Below, in pieces: positions 213 through 54,213 of a stretch of DNA of 64,000 bases. The stretch lies in contig NZ_QEKQ01000004.1 of the NCBI RefSeq assembly GCF_003096655.1, forward strand, positions 1 to 64,000, read 5' to 3'. Positions within the stretch are counted from its first letter, which is position 1, and every line of letters starts with the position of its first letter. Below the pieces are notes generated by a model that saw only the letters and a program-made list of their open reading frames with translations, was not told the DNA's origin and searched no databases. The position numbers and the translations under genes were made by a program. Source of the stretch: Tamilnaduibacter salinus. GTDB lineage: Bacteria > Pseudomonadota > Gammaproteobacteria > Pseudomonadales > Oleiphilaceae.

Positions 213-487
213 TCGCCGCGGAATCCGCGGAAGGACGCGGAAAAATAAAAAGACGTTTTTAGCCACGGAAAGACACAGAAAACACGGAAAAATATCGTGA
301 AGAGACTGTAGGAGCTTGCCTGCAAGCGACTCGTTTGATCGCAAACGCGATAGAACTCTCAAGTGCGTCGCGAGCAGGCTCGCTCCTACAACTTATTGTT
401 CACGCCCGAAGGGCGTTTCCGTGCTTTCCGTGTCTTTCTGTGGCTATTCAATCTCTTCCGCGTCTTTCCGCGGGTTCCGCGGCGATA
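213..487. repeat. Four-level nested inverted repeat between hcp and vgrG
   Basis: This 275-bp stretch fills most of the gene-free interval 178-559 and is built as hairpins inside hairpins. The outer arms (213-246 and 454-486) are rich in CCGCGGAA. The second arms (261-290 and 416-445) read AGCCACGGAAAGACAC and its complement with few mismatches. The third arms (306-330 and 367-389) are a REP-like TGTAGGAGC..GCAAGCGA palindrome. The innermost hairpin is CGTTTG-ATCG-CAAACG (332-347). A small hairpin, CGCCCGAAGGGCG, sits at 403-415. The same modules recur at 22567-22721 and 39747-40199. There is no coding sequence; the short open frames here read through the repeats. Confidence 0.85.
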
Positions 488-39307: not shown

Positions 39308-39736
39308 ATGAGCGCAATCTGGAGCCGACGCCCGGACCTGGCGGGTATGGTCGAACACAGCCGCAATACCGCGGTGGAAGCCATGGGTATCGAATACACG
39401 GAAGTGGGGGATGACTTCGTCCGCGGGCGGATGCCGGTTGATCACCGCACGCATCAGCCGTTTGGCATTCTCCACGGTGGCGCGTCGGTCCTGCTGGCGG
39501 AAACGCTGGGCAGCATGGCCGCCAACCACTGCCTGCGCAGCGAGAATCAGGTGGCCGTCGGGCTGGACATCAACGCCAACCACTTGCGGTCGGTCACCTC
39601 CGGCTGGGTCACCGGTACCGCCCGCCCCATCCACCTGGGCAGCAGCACCCAGGTGTGGGAGATCATCATCGAGAACGAGCAGGGCAAAAAGACCTGTATT
39701 TCGCGGCTGACGATGGCGGTGGTGGATCGGCGGTAA
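39308..39736 (+). CDS. Hotdog-fold thioesterase (PaaI/MenI type)
   Basis: The 142-residue protein has the hotdog motif 'QPFGILHGGASVLLAETLGS' with the catalytic Glu in 'AETLG', and 'NANHLRSVTSGWVTGTARPI' in the central helix/strand. It resembles 1,4-dihydroxy-2-naphthoyl-CoA hydrolase (MenI/YdiI) and general acyl-CoA thioesterases. No menaquinone genes are near, so a housekeeping thioesterase is more likely. It has a normal start (ATG 39308 in AAAGGCA context). The end of the gene meets the composite repeat at 39747. Confidence 0.9.
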   Translation: MSAIWSRRPDLAGMVEHSRNTAVEAMGIEYTEVGDDFVRGRMPVDHRTHQPFGILHGGASVLLAETLGSMAANHCLRSENQVAVGLDINANHLRSVTSGWVTGTARPIHLGSSTQVWEIIIENEQGKKTCISRLTMAVVDRR

Positions 39737-39746
39737 CGATCGGGTT

Positions 39747-40199
39747 TGCCGCGGAAAAACGCGGAACGACGCGGAATAGGGCTGCGGGATAACTGTAGGA
39801 GCTTGCTTGCAAGCGACCTATGTCGCTAGTGTCTCGTCTGGTTAATTCGCTGACTTACTGCGTGCCCCTGACGGTTCTGGGCAAGGCGTCAGCTCGCAGG
39901 CGGGGTCACTCCCCGTCAAGGGCTGACAACGCCGCTCCAGAGCCGTCAGCGGCGCGCCCTTCGGGAGCCCCTGAAAGGTCTGATAGCCGCGTTGCGCTGA
40001 CTCGATTTGGAACCACCAAACCGTCGCCATCGCGCCTTGCTCTCAGACCTTTCAATGGCTCAGTAAGTCAGCGAATTAACCAGACGAGACACTAGAGCCC
40101 CACGAATACCTCCGAAGAGGTCGCGAGCAAGCTCGCTCCTACAGTGAGTCAGCCACGTCCGAAGGACGGCGTCCGTGCTTTCCGTGTTTTTCCGTGGCG
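39747..40199. repeat. Nested palindrome interrupted by an inserted element
   Basis: The outer arms (39747-39776 and 40171-40199) are GCCGCGGAAAAACGCGG and its imperfect complement. The REP-like inner arms (39792-39818 and 40119-40145) are ACTGTAGGAGCTTGCTTGCA and its complement. A small hairpin CGTCCGAAGGACG is at 40156-40168. These correspond to the outer/second and third arms of the nested repeat at 213-487 and to the repeat at 22567. The arms are now 310 bp apart because element 39826-40095 lies between them. Confidence 0.8.
39826..40095. mobile_element. MITE-like element, 35-bp perfect terminal inverted repeats
   Basis: CTAGTGTCTCGTCTGG.. at 39826-39860 and its exact complement at 40061-40095 are 35-bp perfect terminal repeats. 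The outer CTAG at each end may be a target-site copy, leaving ends TGTC...GACA. The 200-bp centre is a series of hairpins: CTGACGG../..CCGTCAG, GGCGTCAGC/GCTGACAACGCC and a 12-bp pair, TGAAAGGTCTGA (39972-39983) with TCAGACCTTTCA (40043-40054). No ORF for a transposase exists, so it would need one in trans. CTAG targets and TGT ends recall the IS481 group, but this is only a suggestion. Related sequence occurs at 54093-54213 and 50538-50560. Confidence 0.7.
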
Positions 40200-40207
40200 A
40201 TAAACGA

Positions 40208-42478
40208 TCACTGATTCTGTCGAAGCTGCTTTGCCGCGTTGACCATGTTCGCCAGCGCGGGCCGGACTTCCTCCCACTGCCGCGTTTTCAGGCCGCAATC
40301 CGGGTTGATCCAGAGCCGTTCGCGGGGAATCCGTTCGGCTGCCTTCGCCATCAGCTCGACGATGTGACCCTCGCTCGGCGTGTTGGGCGAGTGGATGTCG
40401 TAGACACCGGGGCCGATCTCGTTCGGGTACTGGAAGTGGTCGAAGGCATCCAGCAGCTCCATGTCCGAGCGGGACGTCTCGATGGTGATCACGTCCGCGT
40501 CCATGTCGGCGATGGACTCGATGATGTCGTTGAACTCCGAATAGCACATGTGGGTGTGGATCTGTGTCTCGTCCTGAACGCCGTTGGCCGCGATCCGGAA
40601 CGCGGTGACCGCCCAGTCCAGATAGGTCTGCCAGTCCGACCGGCGCAGGGGCAGGCCTTCGCGCAGAGCCGCCTCGTCGATCTGGATGATCCGCACACCG
40701 GCCTTCTCCAGATCCAGCACCTCTTCACGGATCGCCAGGGCGATCTGGTAGCAGGTGTCGCTTCGTGGCTGGTCGTCCCGGACGAAGGACCAGTTCAGGA
40801 TGGTCACCGGCCCGGTCAGCATGCCCTTGAGCGGTTGCCGGGTCAGCGACTGGGCGTAGCGGATCCAGTCGACCGTCATCGCCCGCGGGCGAGTGATGTC
40901 ACCGTAGAGGATCGGTGGTTTGACGCAGCGTGAGCCGTAGGACTGGACCCAGCCGAACTGGCTGAAGGCGTAGCCGTCCAGCTGTTCGCCGAAGTACTCC
41001 ACCATATCGTTACGCTCGGCCTCGCCATGGACCAGCACGTCCAGGCCCAACTTCTCCTGTTCGGTCACCGCGTAGGCAATGTTCTCACGCATCAGGTTCA
41101 GGTAGGTGCCCTCGTTCAGCTCCCCCTTGCGGAACTTCAGACGCGTCTGGCGGATGTCCTTCGTCTGCGGGAAAGAGCCGATGGTGGTGGTCGGGTAGTC
41201 TGGCAGTTTCAGGAATGCGGACTGCTTCTTCGCGCGCTCGGCGTATGGGCTCTGGCGCTGACCCAGTGCCGGCGTGATGTTGGCCACGGCATCGCGGACG
41301 CTCGGTTGCCGGACCCGGTCGGACTGGCGGCGACTGTCGATTGCCTGCGCATTCTCGGCCAGTTCGGTCCCGACACTTTCGCGGCCCTCATTCAGCGCCC
41401 GCGCCAGTACCCGCAGCTCCTCCAGCTTCTGCAGTGCGAAGGACAGCCAGGAACGGATCTCCGGGTCCAGTTTCCTCTCATTGGTGACATCCACCGGCAC
41501 ATGCAGCAGCGAGCAGGATGGCGCCAGCCAGAGACGGTCACCGAGCCGGTGGTGAAGCGGTTCCAGCCAGTCCAGACGGTCGCCGAGATCCGCTTTCCAG
41601 ATGTTACGACCGTCCACGACCCCGAGCGACAGCACCCGGTCGTCCGGCAGCCGGGCGATGGCGTCGTCCGCCTCGACACGACTCTGGGTGGTGTCCAGGT
41701 GCAGGCCGGCAACCGGCAGCTCACAGGCCAGTGGCAGGTTGTCTCCGAGGCGCCCGAAGTAGGTGGTGAGCAGCAGTCGGGCGGTGGACTGCCCCAGTGT
41801 GGCGTAGGCGGTGCGCAGCGCGTCCTGCCAGCGCTCGTCCAGATCGGTGACCAGCACCGGCTCGTCAATCTGGACCCAGTCGGCTCCGGCGGCAACCAGC
41901 TGATCCAGCAGTGCCGAGTACGCCGGCAGCAGCCGTTCCAGAAGCTGCAGTGGGTCGGAGTCGTCTTTGGCCTTGCCCAGCGAGAGGTACGTGACCGGAC
42001 CGATGATCACCGGTTTAGCGCGGACCGACGCGGCCTTGGCTTCTTCCAGCTGCGTCAGCAGTCGTTCCGGGTTCAATTCGAAGTCCGTATCGGCCGTGAA
42101 CTCCGGCACGATGTAGTGGTAATTGGTGTCGAACCACTTGGTCATTTCCCCGGCCGCCACCCCGTTGCTGTCGCCAGCTGACCGCCCCCGGGCCACCCGG
42201 AAGTAGGTGTCGAGCTCGGACCCACCGAGACGGGCGGCCCGCTGCGGAACATGGCCGAGGGTCATGCTCATGTCGAGCACCTGGTCGTAGAGCGAGAAGT
42301 CGCCCACCGGAACGCGATCGAGAACCGACTGCTGACGCCAGTGCCGCTGGCGCAGCTCGCGCCCGGTGGTCAGCAGGCTCTCGGCCGCTTCCAGGCCTTT
42401 CCAGAAGTTTTCCAGGCTGAACTTGAGCTCGCGCTTCGCGCCAATGCGCGGGAAGCCAAGGTTGTGCGTGATGGTCAT
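40208..42478 (-). CDS. metE: Cobalamin-independent methionine synthase MetE
   Basis: MetE transfers the methyl group of 5-methyltetrahydropteroyl-triglutamate to homocysteine, making methionine without B12. The 756-residue protein has both TIM-barrel halves. The zinc ligands show in '[12 protein letters not shown]' (His, Cys) and '[13 protein letters not shown]' (second Cys). The N-terminus '[16 protein letters not shown]' is standard. The ATG at 42478 follows AGGAGAC; the extended frame to 42535 is not supported. It is divergent from metR, with a MetR-like box in the 110-bp spacer, so MetR activation with homocysteine is expected. It ends at the composite repeat. No metH is in the window. 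Confidence 0.97.
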
Positions 42479-42565
42479 GGTGGGTGTCTCCTGACAGTGA
42501 AAAAGCGACTGAAAGGATACGAGTGACGAACCCATGATATAAAATGGTATTATTTCAATAAATCA

Positions 42566-50537: not shown

Positions 50538-50560
50538 AGGCGGAGAGTGTCCCGTCTGGC
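50538..50560. mobile_element. Solo terminal sequence of the TGTC-end element
   Basis: TGTCCCGTCTGGCTAATTC resembles the terminal repeat of the element at 39826-40095 (TGTCTCGTCTGGTTAATTC), differing at two positions, and continues ATTCGCC. No second end is present before the EAL gene at 50726, so this looks like a remnant. Confidence 0.5.
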
Positions 50561-50725
50561 TAATTCATTCGCCAATCAGTACGTGCTGAAGACCGGGCTG
50601 GTTTTGCGACACTTCCGGTTATCGAACGCGTCAAGGCGCTGTCACATTCCCGCGTTACAGTCATGGGGTCATTCTGATAGACAGGCTCGGTGGTGCGTTA
50701 GCACTGCCAGCAAGAGAGAATCCCG

Positions 50726-52480
50726 ATGTATGATGACCTCGCCCGTGACCTCGCGCGCATTCTGGAGACCGGCACGGTTCGAACCCTGTTTCAGCCGATC
50801 GTGGACACCCGGCAACAGCAGGTGTTTGGCTACGAGGCACTGAGTCGCGGACCATCCGACAGCCTCCTGCACGCGGCACCACTGCTTTTCGAAACAGCGG
50901 AGCGGTGTGAGCGGACCGTGGAGCTGGAACGGGCCTGTCTGCGGATGGCGGCGGCCACCTGGGCCAGCCACGGCATTCCCCACAAGCTGTTCGTCAATGT
51001 CAGCCCGGCACTGTTGATGCCGCCGGTATTTCAGAAGGTTCGTCTCAGACACCTATTGGAGCAGCATGGACTGAATCCGTCGGACATCGTCGTTGAACTG
51101 TCCGAACGCTACCCAGCCATTGATCTCTCCACGCTCCGGGGAAGCCTGTCCTGGCTGCAGGAGCAGGGCTTTGCGGTCGCCATCGATGACCTCGGCAGCG
51201 GGTACTCCGGCCTGAAGCTCTGGGCCGAGCTGAAGCCGGATTTCGTCAAGATCGATCGCCACTTCATCCGGGGCATCGATGCCGATCTGGTCAAGAAAGA
51301 GTTCGTGCGTTCGGTCGTGGATCTCTCCCGGAGGCTGGGGTGCCAGCTCATCGCAGAAGGCGTGGAAACCGAGGCCGAGCAGCGGGTGATGACCGCTCTG
51401 GGGATCACCTATATTCAGGGGTTTCTCTATGGCCGGCCAGCGGCCATTCCGGGAGCCGATCTGGCGCCGCTGGTCCGAGCCCGCCCGCCAGCGCCAAAGA
51501 GTCCGGGTCGGGAAACCGCGCGGCACCTGACCGAGTCTGTCCCGCCTGCAAGCCCCTCGACGACGCTAGCCGAGGCGTGGGAACGGCTCCAGGCGGAACC
51601 TGGGGTGTACGCTCTGCCGGTGGTTGAAGACGGCCGACCATTGGGGCTGCTGCACAAGTGGCGCGTGCTGGAAACGTTCAGCTCACCCTACGGACGCTCT
51701 CTCAATGAGCGCCACTCGGTGACGACGATGCTGTCGACAGACGCGCTGGTCGTCGACCGCGACACCCCACTTGAATCGGTCAGCCGGCTGTTGGTGGATG
51801 AGGACGTCCATTACCTGAAGCAGCACTTCATCGTGACCGAGAACCAGCGGTATGTGGGACTGGGGTCCACCCGTTCCGTGCTCCAGCGCATTACCGAAGA
51901 GAAGGTGGCTCGTGCTCGCCATGCCAATCCGCTCTCCGGGTTGCCAGGCAATGTCCCCATTCAGCAGGAAATGGAGCGCCGGGTCACCGCCAGCGAGGCC
52001 TTTGACCTGATCTATTTCGACATCAACCACTTCAAACCACTCAACGATGTACTGGGTTACCGGACCGGGGATCAGGTGATTGTGCAACTGGCGGACATCC
52101 TCACCAGCCTGTTCCGGGCGGACGAGGCGTTCGTTGGACACATTGGCGGAGACGATTTCGTCGTGATGACCGATGGCCCTGGCAGTGTGCGACTGTGCGA
52201 GCGGGCCCAGGTCCTGTTTGCGCGCGACTGCCAGGGGCACTACCCGGCGTCGATGCGACAGGCCGGACGCGTACAGAGCCTGGACCGCACTGGCGCCCAG
52301 TCCACGTTCCCGTTAGTTAGCCTGTCGGCCGGGATTGTCCGGGTACCGACGGGTGACGAGCGGACCCCGGCACAGCTGGCGGATACCGCCTCGTTGGCCA
52401 AGACCCGGGCCAAGGGCGCGGCCGGTGGTCTCTATATTGAGACCACCGAACCGCGGCCATCAGCGCGGGCGGTCAGTTAA
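50726..52480 (+). CDS. c-di-GMP phosphodiesterase (EAL-CBS-degenerate GGDEF)
   Basis: The 584-residue soluble protein starts with an EAL domain (20-250). The catalytic residues are present: 'YEALSRG' (Glu37), 'VVELSERY', 'IDDLGSGYSGLKLW', 'DFVKIDRHFI' and 'AEGVETEAE'. A CBS-like region follows (about 285-400). A C-terminal GGDEF domain has the signature 'HIGGDDFVVM' (GGDDF, residue 474) with no I-site and a damaged 'LSGLPGN' start. It should therefore degrade c-di-GMP, with the GGDEF-like part acting as a GTP-binding or inert regulatory module. The order EAL first, GGDEF last is less common than GGDEF-EAL. The gene is convergent with the beta-helix gene, 11 bp apart. Confidence 0.88.
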   Translation: MYDDLARDLARILETGTVRTLFQPIVDTRQQQVFGYEALSRGPSDSLLHAAPLLFETAERCERTVELERACLRMAAATWASHGIPHKLFVNVSPALLMPPVFQKVRLRHLLEQHGLNPSDIVVELSERYPAIDLSTLRGSLSWLQEQGFAVAIDDLGSGYSGLKLWAELKPDFVKIDRHFIRGIDADLVKKEFVRSVVDLSRRLGCQLIAEGVETEAEQRVMTALGITYIQGFLYGRPAAIPGADLAPLVRARPPAPKSPGRETARHLTESVPPASPSTTLAEAWERLQAEPGVYALPVVEDGRPLGLLHKWRVLETFSSPYGRSLNERHSVTTMLSTDALVVDRDTPLESVSRLLVDEDVHYLKQHFIVTENQRYVGLGSTRSVLQRITEEKVARARHANPLSGLPGNVPIQQEMERRVTASEAFDLIYFDINHFKPLNDVLGYRTGDQVIVQLADILTSLFRADEAFVGHIGGDDFVVMTDGPGSVRLCERAQVLFARDCQGHYPASMRQAGRVQSLDRTGAQSTFPLVSLSAGIVRVPTGDERTPAQLADTASLAKTRAKGAAGGLYIETTEPRPSARAVS

Positions 52481-52491
52481 GGACGTGCTGA

Positions 52492-54072
52492 TCAATCCAC
52501 GGGAAAGGCGGTCCAGCCTTCTATCCAGGAGTCCCGCGTCAGTGGATTCAGAGCGCCTTGGAACGTGGCGGATTCCTCGAAGAACTCGCTCTGCGGTGGT
52601 GTCGTCGCCGTCATCTGGCGCATGGGAATGGACGACTCGAACGCCGGATGCCGGACATTCCGGGCGGCGGGCTGGAGCGCGCTGCCGATCTCGAAGAAGT
52701 TGTCGGACGACGGTGTCTTGATCCATGCCTGTTCATCGAAGCCGAAGTCATCGTCCCGGTCGCCGCGCTCCTGTTTCCGGACGCCGATCCGGCCGGTGTT
52801 GGCGATCAGGTTGTTGGTGAAGGTCAACCGGTCATTGCCGACCAGAGCGGAGACTTCATCACGGGTGTCCAGCGCGCCGATACCGTAGCTGTCGATGATC
52901 ATGTTGTGGAAATGGCCGCCTGTGCCTTCGCGCAGGACCATGCCTCGGTGCTGGGTCGCGCCCTGGCCGGAGCCGGCGAGCGTGACGTTGTAGAACGTCG
53001 GTTCGGAGCGTGGCGTGGCTTGATGACTGTCGCCGTTGTTGTCGCCCTCGAACGCATTGTCGCCGGCATCCGGATGCTGCTGAATGACTGCGAACTGGAC
53101 CCGGCCATTCCAGCCCCAGTCCCAGTCGATGCCGTCGTCACCGGCGCCGGTGATCAGGACCTTCTTGAGATCGACCGTGCCGCCGAACATTTCGATGCCA
53201 TCGTCCAGGGCCCGGTGGACCTGCACATTGCGGATAATGGTGTTGCGGCCGCAGCCCCCCAGCGTCAGACCGTTCAACTCATTGTCCTTGGACACCTCGT
53301 AGCCCGCGAACTCGATCCGGGTGTATTCGACGACGCCACAGCTTGAATCGGCGTCGCTGCCGCCGAACTGACCCGCCCGTGTGCCCGCGTGCAGGCCCTC
53401 GATGGAGGCGTTGGGCTGGTTGACCGGCGCATTGCCGAGCAGCACGACACCGCCCCAGTCGCCACGGCTGCGCTGTCCCTCGGCTTTATGACTGGTGAAC
53501 ACCACCGGGTTGCCGGCCTGCCCGCGGGAGTAAAGCTGACTGTCCGGCAGCACGACCAGCGCGGCCCCATTGGTGCCCTCGACTCGCGCGCCCGGCTGAA
53601 TGGTCAGGCGGGTATTCCGCACGAATACAATGTCGTCAAGAATATAGGTACGTCCCGACTCCCAGGTGGTGACGCTCGTGATGTCACTGTCGATCCGTTC
53701 GGCCCGGTTTTCGAACGCGGTGAACCCCACCGAAATGGCCAGAGCCGTCCCCATGGCCGGCAGAAGCCAGAGCGCCCGACGGCGCCAGGGGTGTCTTTTC
53801 GACGTGGCGGTGGTCCGTTGAGTGTGTTGGACAGGTTGGGGCGAGCGGGCCAGCAACGGCTCGCCTTGATCCATCGCCTGGATTTCCCGTGCCAGTGCCC
53901 GCAGTTCGTCCGTGCCCTGACGGGCAACCTGTTCGAGGACCTCGTCCCGGTAGACGGGGTCGCGAAGCAGGTTGTTGAGGTGGACAAAGGCCAGTCCCTG
54001 GCAGTCACCGTTATCAACGCCCCGCTTGAGGCGCCAGAGTCTTTCAACGATCAGCGAGGACGCTTCCGACAT
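52492..54072 (-). CDS. Membrane-anchored right-handed beta-helix protein
   Basis: The 526-residue protein has three parts. Residues 1-90 are a soluble helical domain on the cytosolic side, without a recognised family. A basic patch, KRHPWRRR (92-99), and one membrane helix (100-120) follow. Residues 125-526 form a periplasmic region of beta-helix type, with many Gly/Asn/Asp turns ('GDWGGVVLLGNAPVN', 'RALDDGIEMFGGTVDLKKVL', 'GDDGIDWDWGWNGRVQ'). Similar beta-helix regions occur in secreted bacterial proteins of unknown role. The ATG at 54072 follows AGGAG; a frame to 54183 is not supported. The N-terminal domain recalls anti-sigma or zinc-finger-like domains in position, but no ligand set is seen. 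The role is unknown. Confidence 0.75.
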   Translation of the reverse strand: MSEASSLIVERLWRLKRGVDNGDCQGLAFVHLNNLLRDPVYRDEVLEQVARQGTDELRALAREIQAMDQGEPLLARSPQPVQHTQRTTATSKRHPWRRRALWLLPAMGTALAISVGFTAFENRAERIDSDITSVTTWESGRTYILDDIVFVRNTRLTIQPGARVEGTNGAALVVLPDSQLYSRGQAGNPVVFTSHKAEGQRSRGDWGGVVLLGNAPVNQPNASIEGLHAGTRAGQFGGSDADSSCGVVEYTRIEFAGYEVSKDNELNGLTLGGCGRNTIIRNVQVHRALDDGIEMFGGTVDLKKVLITGAGDDGIDWDWGWNGRVQFAVIQQHPDAGDNAFEGDNNGDSHQATPRSEPTFYNVTLAGSGQGATQHRGMVLREGTGGHFHNMIIDSYGIGALDTRDEVSALVGNDRLTFTNNLIANTGRIGVRKQERGDRDDDFGFDEQAWIKTPSSDNFFEIGSALQPAARNVRHPAFESSIPMRQMTATTPPQSEFFEESATFQGALNPLTRDSWIEGWTAFPVD

Positions 54073-54092
54073 ACTGCTACTCCTGAGGAAAA

Positions 54093-54213
54093 TGTCTCGT
54101 GTCCGGTCGGGTTCTTTTGCTGACTGAGCCACTGCTGAACGGTCTGTGGGCAAGGCGCGATAGCGACGGCTTGGTCGTTCCAAACCGGGTCAGCGAATGA
54201 ATCAGACAGGACA
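54093..54213. mobile_element. Degenerate short copy of the TGTC...GACA element
   Basis: A 121-bp sequence starts TGTCTCGTGTCCGG and ends CAGACAGGACA. Its interior, GGCAAGGCGCGATAGCGACGG, closely matches the right half of the 39826-40095 element read in reverse (GCAAGGCGCGATGGCGACGG). It lies between the beta-helix gene start and the GMC oxidoreductase gene, close to the 5' end of the beta-helix gene (20 bp upstream of its ATG). It may carry part of that promoter. Confidence 0.6.

Follow-up and report, generated by a model that had tools for sequence, protein, structure and literature searches.

Within the window, by which we mean the whole 64-kb stretch of DNA analysed, the locus considered here lies between a 4HBT thioesterase gene (39308-39736, + strand) and the 3' end of a gene for cobalamin-independent methionine synthase (40208-42535, - strand). 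It consists of nested inverted repeats around a 262-bp element. Its features, and those of an empty paralogue elsewhere in the window, are as follows.

39748..39766, + strand: left arm of the outer palindrome, GCGGAAAAACGCGGAA type (inverted repeat I4, 89%; a similar arm lies at 227-242)
39792..39819, + strand: left REP-like arm of the doublet (inverted repeat I2, 86%; motif at 39794-39814)
39826..39829, no strand: CTAG, left copy of the 4-bp target duplication (flank counts in 64 copies; empty sites with one copy)
39830..40091, no strand: MITE, 262 bp, TGTC...GACA (length 261 or 262 bp in 62 of the 64 distinct full-length copies)
39830..39860, + strand: left terminal inverted repeat (inverted repeat I1, 100%; helix 1 of the consensus fold)
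39860..39957, + strand: hairpin A in sense orientation, with its CAAGGCG ... GCAACGC core (helices 2-4; match to hairpin model R2 at 100.4 bits, the window copy being one of the 24 in that model)
39957..39965, no strand: CCC-TTC-GGG linker joining hairpins A and B (its consensus pairs 130/136 and 131/135 form in all 27 rows)
39965..40061, - strand: hairpin B, homologous to A and inverted (minus-strand match to R2 at 62.2 bits, E 4.5e-14)
40061..40091, - strand: right terminal inverted repeat (I1)
40092..40095, no strand: CTAG, right copy of the 4-bp target duplication (flank counts in 64 copies; empty sites)
40118..40145, - strand: right REP-like arm of the doublet (I2; motif at 40123-40143)
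40180..40198, - strand: right arm of the outer palindrome (I4)
307..390, no strand: empty paralogue of the REP doublet, 84 bp (outer arms at 227-242 / 456-471)

An earlier sequence-only reading had described a 270-bp element bounded by perfect 35-bp terminal repeats with CTAG at both ends. The repeats and the CTAG words stand, while the size needs correction: the perfect 35-nt inverted repeat (39826-39860 / 40061-40095) comprises 31 nt of element and 4 nt of palindromic CTAG target, so that, CTAG being the target duplication, the element measures 262 bp and its repeats 31 bp, with ends of the TGTCYCGTCTGG type beside CTAG. The same reading had placed arms of a palindrome family on either side, a chain of hairpins in the centre and no transposase ORF in the element, and all of this holds: the REP-like arms (86%) and outer arms (89%) flank the element, its centre is two hairpins joined by the linker, and the 91-aa ORF across it (39820-40095) has no Pfam or NCBIfam match at E <= 0.001. 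What had been missed is the homology of the inner hairpins, their covariation and their conservation across the order. Hairpin A and the reversed hairpin B have in common the core CAAGGCG, a mostly TGGTT apical loop and GCAACRC; since the reversed B is homologous to A, the whole element is an inverted pair.

Folding tests rule out a chance palindrome. As RNA, the whole 453-nt nest reaches a z of -21.5 with 0 of 100 shuffles as good, and 270 nt folded as DNA reach -104.5 kcal/mol (z -15.9, a value equalled by 0 of 200 shuffles). Rfam 15 at gathering score returned nothing in window 39700-40250 (best sub-threshold E 0.017) and only tRNAs over 15 element loci; attC sites and small ribozymes were also considered and set aside.

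The flanking palindrome, which resembles a REPIN or REP doublet, has a counterpart in the window. REP-like motifs occur 4 times in the window against 0.14 expected, and at 220-480 the nested doublet is present in full but unoccupied, its outer arms being of the CGGAAA type. The filled doublet spans 350 bp (39794-40143) and the empty one 84 bp; 350 minus 266 (262 + 4) is exactly 84, which indicates that the element entered a pre-existing doublet loop holding CTAG. That word is scarce in the window (9 occurrences versus 223 expected from base composition). Its presence in the doublet loop is chance, and the palindrome is an accidental target. An orthologous empty allele was sought at the metE loci of 29 relatives (1.5 kb flanks), where the thioesterase neighbour and the terminal repeat were both absent; the host genus is represented by one genome.

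The element is present in many copies. With up to 3 mismatches, the terminal repeat has 65 sites in the host's own genome (3.4 Mb, 23 contigs), and a reversed control pattern has 0. In the host family 58 of 151 genomes match, the own genome included; exact matching across the genome collection returned 59 stretches, every one of them titled Marinobacter. The loci retrieved yielded 64 distinct full-length copies, of which the own genome supplied 18; as GenBank and GTDB copies overlap, duplicates were removed on the basis of element and flank together. The search match counts of 73 and 75 are not copy numbers, as each copy matches on both strands and the 73-match query included the REP arms. Besides the 62 copies of 261 or 262 bp, one is 268 bp and one 276 bp long. 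CTAG stands on both sides in 39 of the 64, on one side in 17 and on neither in 8. Among the 39, the next base outward is identical in 9, about the chance level, and the target duplication is thus 4 bp. Five loci (L044, L045, L047, L048 and L049) carry solitary element ends with CTAG outside and no partner end in the 6 kb covered, and two diverged own-genome copies with TGCCCCGTTTGG ends (L021, L024) lie in similar flanking sequence, a duplicated site. In M. persicus (L118, L126) a copy interrupts, as judged by eye, a phospholipase-D-like frame, the 135-aa piece having no Pfam match; an IS5 transposase fragment lies about 0.5-0.9 kb from that copy.

Empty sites, which the sequence-only reading had proposed to look for in relatives, were found at other loci when the joined flanks of 12 copies were compared with 163 genomes of the host family, two candidates being scored per genome, and 30 loci were read among the matches listed. 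At the site of a Marinobacter pelagius copy (L134), the matches listed include 6 empty alleles, 2 of them with exactly one CTAG and 96-97% flank identity; a second site (L107) has 8 empty alleles among the matches listed, 3 with CTAG, so that 5 of these 14 alleles carry the exact word. At the site of an M. persicus copy (L097), all 10 empty alleles among the matches listed have CCAG in place of CTAG. No empty allele of the L132 site appeared among the loci read. Across the 24 empty alleles of the three sites, again among the matches listed, inverted-repeat scores are 5-9, with random cuts at a median of 7 and a 99th percentile of 11. Empty alleles that have CTAG and no inverted repeat indicate that CTAG is the duplicated target and that the arms are unnecessary. 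These results support the earlier identification of a MITE, that is, a multi-copy element with terminal repeats, a 4-bp duplication, empty sites in relatives and no ORF of a known family. It has terminal inverted repeats, lacks a transposase gene and is shorter than 500 bp, and we class it as a MITE by its anatomy and target duplication.

The reading had further held that the element used a palindrome loop as its target. This is correct for the window copy, which did insert into such a loop, and fails as a rule. Were REP loops targeted specifically, other insertions should resemble the one in the window, the single case that favours the idea; among 63 insertions, the REP motif occurs within 150 bp in 3 and on both sides only at the window copy (1/63), and inverted-repeat scores of 15 or more occur at 2 (the window copy and L024) versus 0 of 140 random cuts. 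An empty site lacking the palindrome arms had been named as the observation that would count against the proposal, and such alleles are what the three other sites provided. With the 1/63 count and the arm-free empty sites, targeting of REP loops as a rule is refuted, and we assign specific targeting almost no probability.

We then consider the hairpins. The alignment within the host family holds 27 non-redundant copies, none more than 93% identical to another (lowest pair 52%, median 75%), which align nearly gap-free; three copies (L026, L085, L132) were left out of alignments A2 and A3. The consensus fold has 100 pairs, comprising a 30-bp terminal stem, hairpin A, the linker and hairpin B. 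Double-sided, compensatory changes occur at 62 of the 100 pairs across the 27 copies, and 96.9% of cells are paired versus 85.4% after shuffling and 34-41% after sliding, cells that are not independent of one another. The terminal repeats covary also, at 20 of 30 pairs, and need no RNA role to do so.

This last observation favours an ordinary IS-derived MITE whose hairpins are functionless, their arms being complementary because replication templates one arm on the other. In long quasi-palindromes one arm can serve to correct the other, and a hairpin template can homogenise arms without selection. The near-equal conservation of unpaired and paired columns within the family (0.853 and 0.856) fits this explanation as well. 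Arm correction accounts, however, neither for the loop core common to A and B nor for the one-sense excess of G.T mismatches described next, and beyond the family conservation is higher at unpaired than at paired positions. On balance we think it unlikely that the hairpins are without function.

Were it the double-stranded form of the hairpins that is preserved, a given strand should show as many G.T as A.C mismatches. We counted them in the sense orientation, which had been set beforehand by hairpin homology, leaving out one copy (L026) because its B half is inverted and four pair columns with fewer than 60% Watson-Crick pairs. The hairpins show 55 G.T and 11 A.C mismatches (over 27 versus 9 pair columns), counts whose cells are likewise non-independent; G.T prevails in 21 of 26 rows, with 2 rows the other way and 3 ties. 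The bias is strong in hairpin A (39:3) and weaker in B (16:8), and the terminal stem is unbiased (G.T 8, A.C 10). With the four dropped columns kept, the ratios are 93:37 in the hairpins and 18:13 in the stem, the latter over all 27 rows. An excess of G.T over A.C in one sense points to selection on a single strand, perhaps RNA, and suggests that the hairpins may be selected as a folded single strand, most simply RNA.

The same counts bear on the idea that the hairpins act as DNA, either as extruded cruciforms or as single-stranded hairpins at the replication fork, and that binding of the transposase or of some host protein to them makes the element a better substrate. A need for double-stranded hairpins predicts equal G.T and A.C, which is true of the terminal stem and not of the hairpins, while single-stranded DNA of one sense would still fit the wobble bias. 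The fixed length of the element, at 261-262 bp in 62 of 64 copies and 257-266 bp at 20 of 27 distinct YTAR-bounded loci outside the family, speaks for such a role. Also relevant to it are three shorter, CTAG-flanked copies (L110, L129, L025) in which one hairpin has collapsed to a small palindrome. We hold a DNA-level role to be a somewhat unlikely alternative.

Beyond the host family, the hairpin was sought with model R2, built from A hairpins alone (98 positions, 39 pairs); a joint model, R1, set the basal stems out of register and was excluded. Of the 390 genomes of the order that were searched, 55 have R2 matches; they belong to 33 of 143 genera and to 20 families, 19 besides the host's own. 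Outside the family it finds 52 matches in 33 loci. There, 93.4% of cells are paired in a highly diverged alignment (A4) that was fitted to the hairpin model, which biases the pairing counts in its favour. No shuffle attains the observed value in three of five covariation measures; of the remaining two, the number of double-change pairs was reached by 12 of 500 shuffles and the number of pair types by 98 of 500. The share of the commonest base is 0.52 at paired and 0.72 at unpaired positions, and the best-kept positions lie in and adjoining the internal loop, the core CAAGGCG / GCAACGC being retained while paired bases change.

Two features that are not in the model also recur. A second, inverted hairpin stands beside the first in 17 of the 33 outside-family loci, and a CCC-NNN-GGG-like linker is present at 26 of 32 outside-family hairpins, always on the 3' side, versus 21 of 1600 random placements, with search patterns that were written after inspecting the sequences. 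The 58 outside-family loci include 6 duplicates, 3 of them among the 30 loci with YTAR on both sides, which leaves 52 and 27 distinct loci; identical YTAR words thus flank 27 of 52 (CTAG 19, TTAA 7, CTAA 1). The terminal repeats of these relatives fall, by reading, into at least nine types. Those of the window, with TCTGGTTAATTCG, and of one outside genome (G474), with TCTGATTAATTCG, look related; ends may have been exchanged or may have diverged step by step.

As to what moved the element, a sister lineage (G244) has GGAACCTCTGAACAAG ends. These agree with the ends of plasmid IS5-family elements over 15-19 bases plus CTAG, one match being one base off. The IS5-family element of Achromobacter pA81 has CTAG on both sides, and in those of Xanthomonas and P. 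avellanae the left end matched. Within the host family, one genome (G080) has an IS5 element (L178) bounded on either side by a CTAG word; its ends are imperfect, with GGAGACTCTGAATAA on the left. The IS5 group inserts at YTAR (CTAG or YTAA in PMC3189936), and the words observed, CTAG at the window and CTAG, TTAA or CTAA outside the family, are those expected of an IS5-group derivative.

An autonomous IS with TGTCTCGTCTGG ends, which the sequence-only reading had proposed as a partner, was sought and not found. The window's TGTC ends have no match in plasmids. In other searches 31 plasmid records gave weak partial matches up to E 10, none of them convincing, and phages and viral contigs gave none. 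No autonomous TGTC-ended element appeared among IS1182, IS701 and IS481-model loci, in plasmids or at the one far pair of ends in the own genome, and a scan of 306 loci for a transposase between TGTC ends returned one chance-looking match. Among the own genome's 65 end sites there is one + / - pair 0.6-4 kb apart (window 50548-54213, 3.67 kb), rejected as an autonomous element because what lies inside is an EAL/GGDEF gene and a gene whose protein has no Pfam match. The lone end at 50548 faces, across the EAL/GGDEF gene, a 114-bp mini copy (54100-54213) that has both terminal repeats, a single degenerate hairpin and the flanks CTCG and CCAG. In another genome, ends 763 bp apart (G088 contig 63, L380 777-1539) bracket an ORF without a Pfam match and were likewise rejected; the pair is a possible capture or two eroded copies. 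IS481 and IS701 were discarded as movers: above cut-off they match 0 of 14 and 0 of 15 element-rich genomes respectively, with weaker matches in all 14 and in 1.

The mover might instead be an IS1182-family element. A second CTAG-bounded palindrome family, with GAGTCTGCGCGG ends, is present in the own genome (L156 1059-2650; L066, L002, L013, L047, L051); its autonomous partner is an IS1182 element in G133 and other genomes, and some of its copies abut copies of the window's family with one CTAG in common. By analogy, the CTAG-flanked IS1182 copies of several genomes, which bear GAGTCTGCGCGG ends and have the word on either side, would suit an IS1182 mover, as would the cross-matches, below cut-off, of IS1182 transposases to the NCBIfam models of IS5 and the reverse. 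No scanned IS1182 locus, however, has paired TGTC ends with CTAG outside, and one genome (G108) with 29 + 29 end matches has no match to the IS1182 model, one that in other genomes detects IS5 transposases as well. The absence of a match in that genome argues against an IS5/IS1182 reading there, or means that the mover was lost. We judge an IS1182 mover improbable.

Overall, the data above establish the insertion, the 4-bp duplication, the spread through the host family, the homology and covariation of the two inverted hairpins, and the conservation of their core across the order beside differing ends. We consider it probable that the 262-bp MITE was moved in trans into the CTAG within the loop of an older REP-like doublet, duplicating that word, and that its hairpins are kept by way of a single strand, likely RNA. 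The putative mover would be a DDE transposase of the IS5/IS1182 clade cutting at YTAR; the proposal draws on the sister lineage with GGAACCTCTGAACAAG ends, which has the ends and the CTAG target of IS5-family elements. What would maintain the hairpins is the folding of the single strand and its binding or processing, most likely in the form of RNA, as part of transcripts crossing the element. As the two hairpins are inverted, every such transcript, whatever the direction of insertion, would carry one hairpin in sense form.

A bolder extension, to which we give tentative credence at best, is that the hairpin itself is a mobile RNA motif. Conserved, and nearly invariant in its internal loop, it would be carried through the order as an inverted pair in 262-bp elements, function in transcripts of either direction, and keep its fold while the ends around it are swapped for those of whichever YTAR-cutting transposase is available. 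If true, this would make it a parasite of structured RNA able to switch vehicles, in a way loosely comparable to SINEs in eukaryotes. The fold and loop extend over 20 families with at least nine terminal repeat types, and if the motif is mobile in this way, selection would act on the interior and success would not be tied to one transposase. The hairpin model makes this group of elements findable, and the conserved loop offers a concrete target for pull-down or mutagenesis.

Among known systems, REPINs resemble the element in being an inverted pair of hairpins; unlike a REPIN, the element shows terminal repeats and duplicates its target. Both features are in line with a DDE transposase rather than with the mechanism of RAYT. 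Among IS5-family elements, those whose ends are GGAACCTCTGAACAAG-like (Achromobacter pA81; IS1646 of Xanthomonas) agree with one lineage of the present elements in their first 15-19 bases plus CTAG; they carry a transposase, and the window's lineage has other ends. ERIC and Correia elements are MITEs able to set RNase cleavage of mRNA, according to a review (PMC10969869), and the likeness to the window element is one between MITEs, by description. Coxiella QMITE1 and QMITE2 are reported to be self-folding MITEs with small RNAs from some copies, direct repeats of 2-4 bp and 7-9 bp, and, per the authors, no QMITE1 orthologues in other genomes (PMC5896051); self-folding is common to them and the window element, again by description, and the direct repeats differ.

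The nearest precedent found is MITEPsy1 / ISPsy2 of Pseudomonas syringae, presented as small and without an ORF, with a 4-bp duplication of CTAG or YTAA and the family assignment 'IS5?' (PMC3189936). Its authors saw MITEPsy1-like sequences in Marinobacter aquaeolei, and its terminal repeat, GGAAGGTCTGAAAAAGCC, resembles one end type of the present element family, GGAAGCTCTGAAAAATACCC. Compared by description, MITEPsy1 is 100 bp long versus 262 bp, the window's ends begin with TGTC, and the available text of that paper makes no mention of a double-hairpin core (PMC3189936). The literature found, mostly as titles and abstract beginnings with few subscription journals (PMC3189936, PMC8024623, PMC10969869 and PMC5896051 among the sources), holds no description of the element family. 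The MITE itself is of a known kind; what is new is the conserved inverted double hairpin combined with differing ends.
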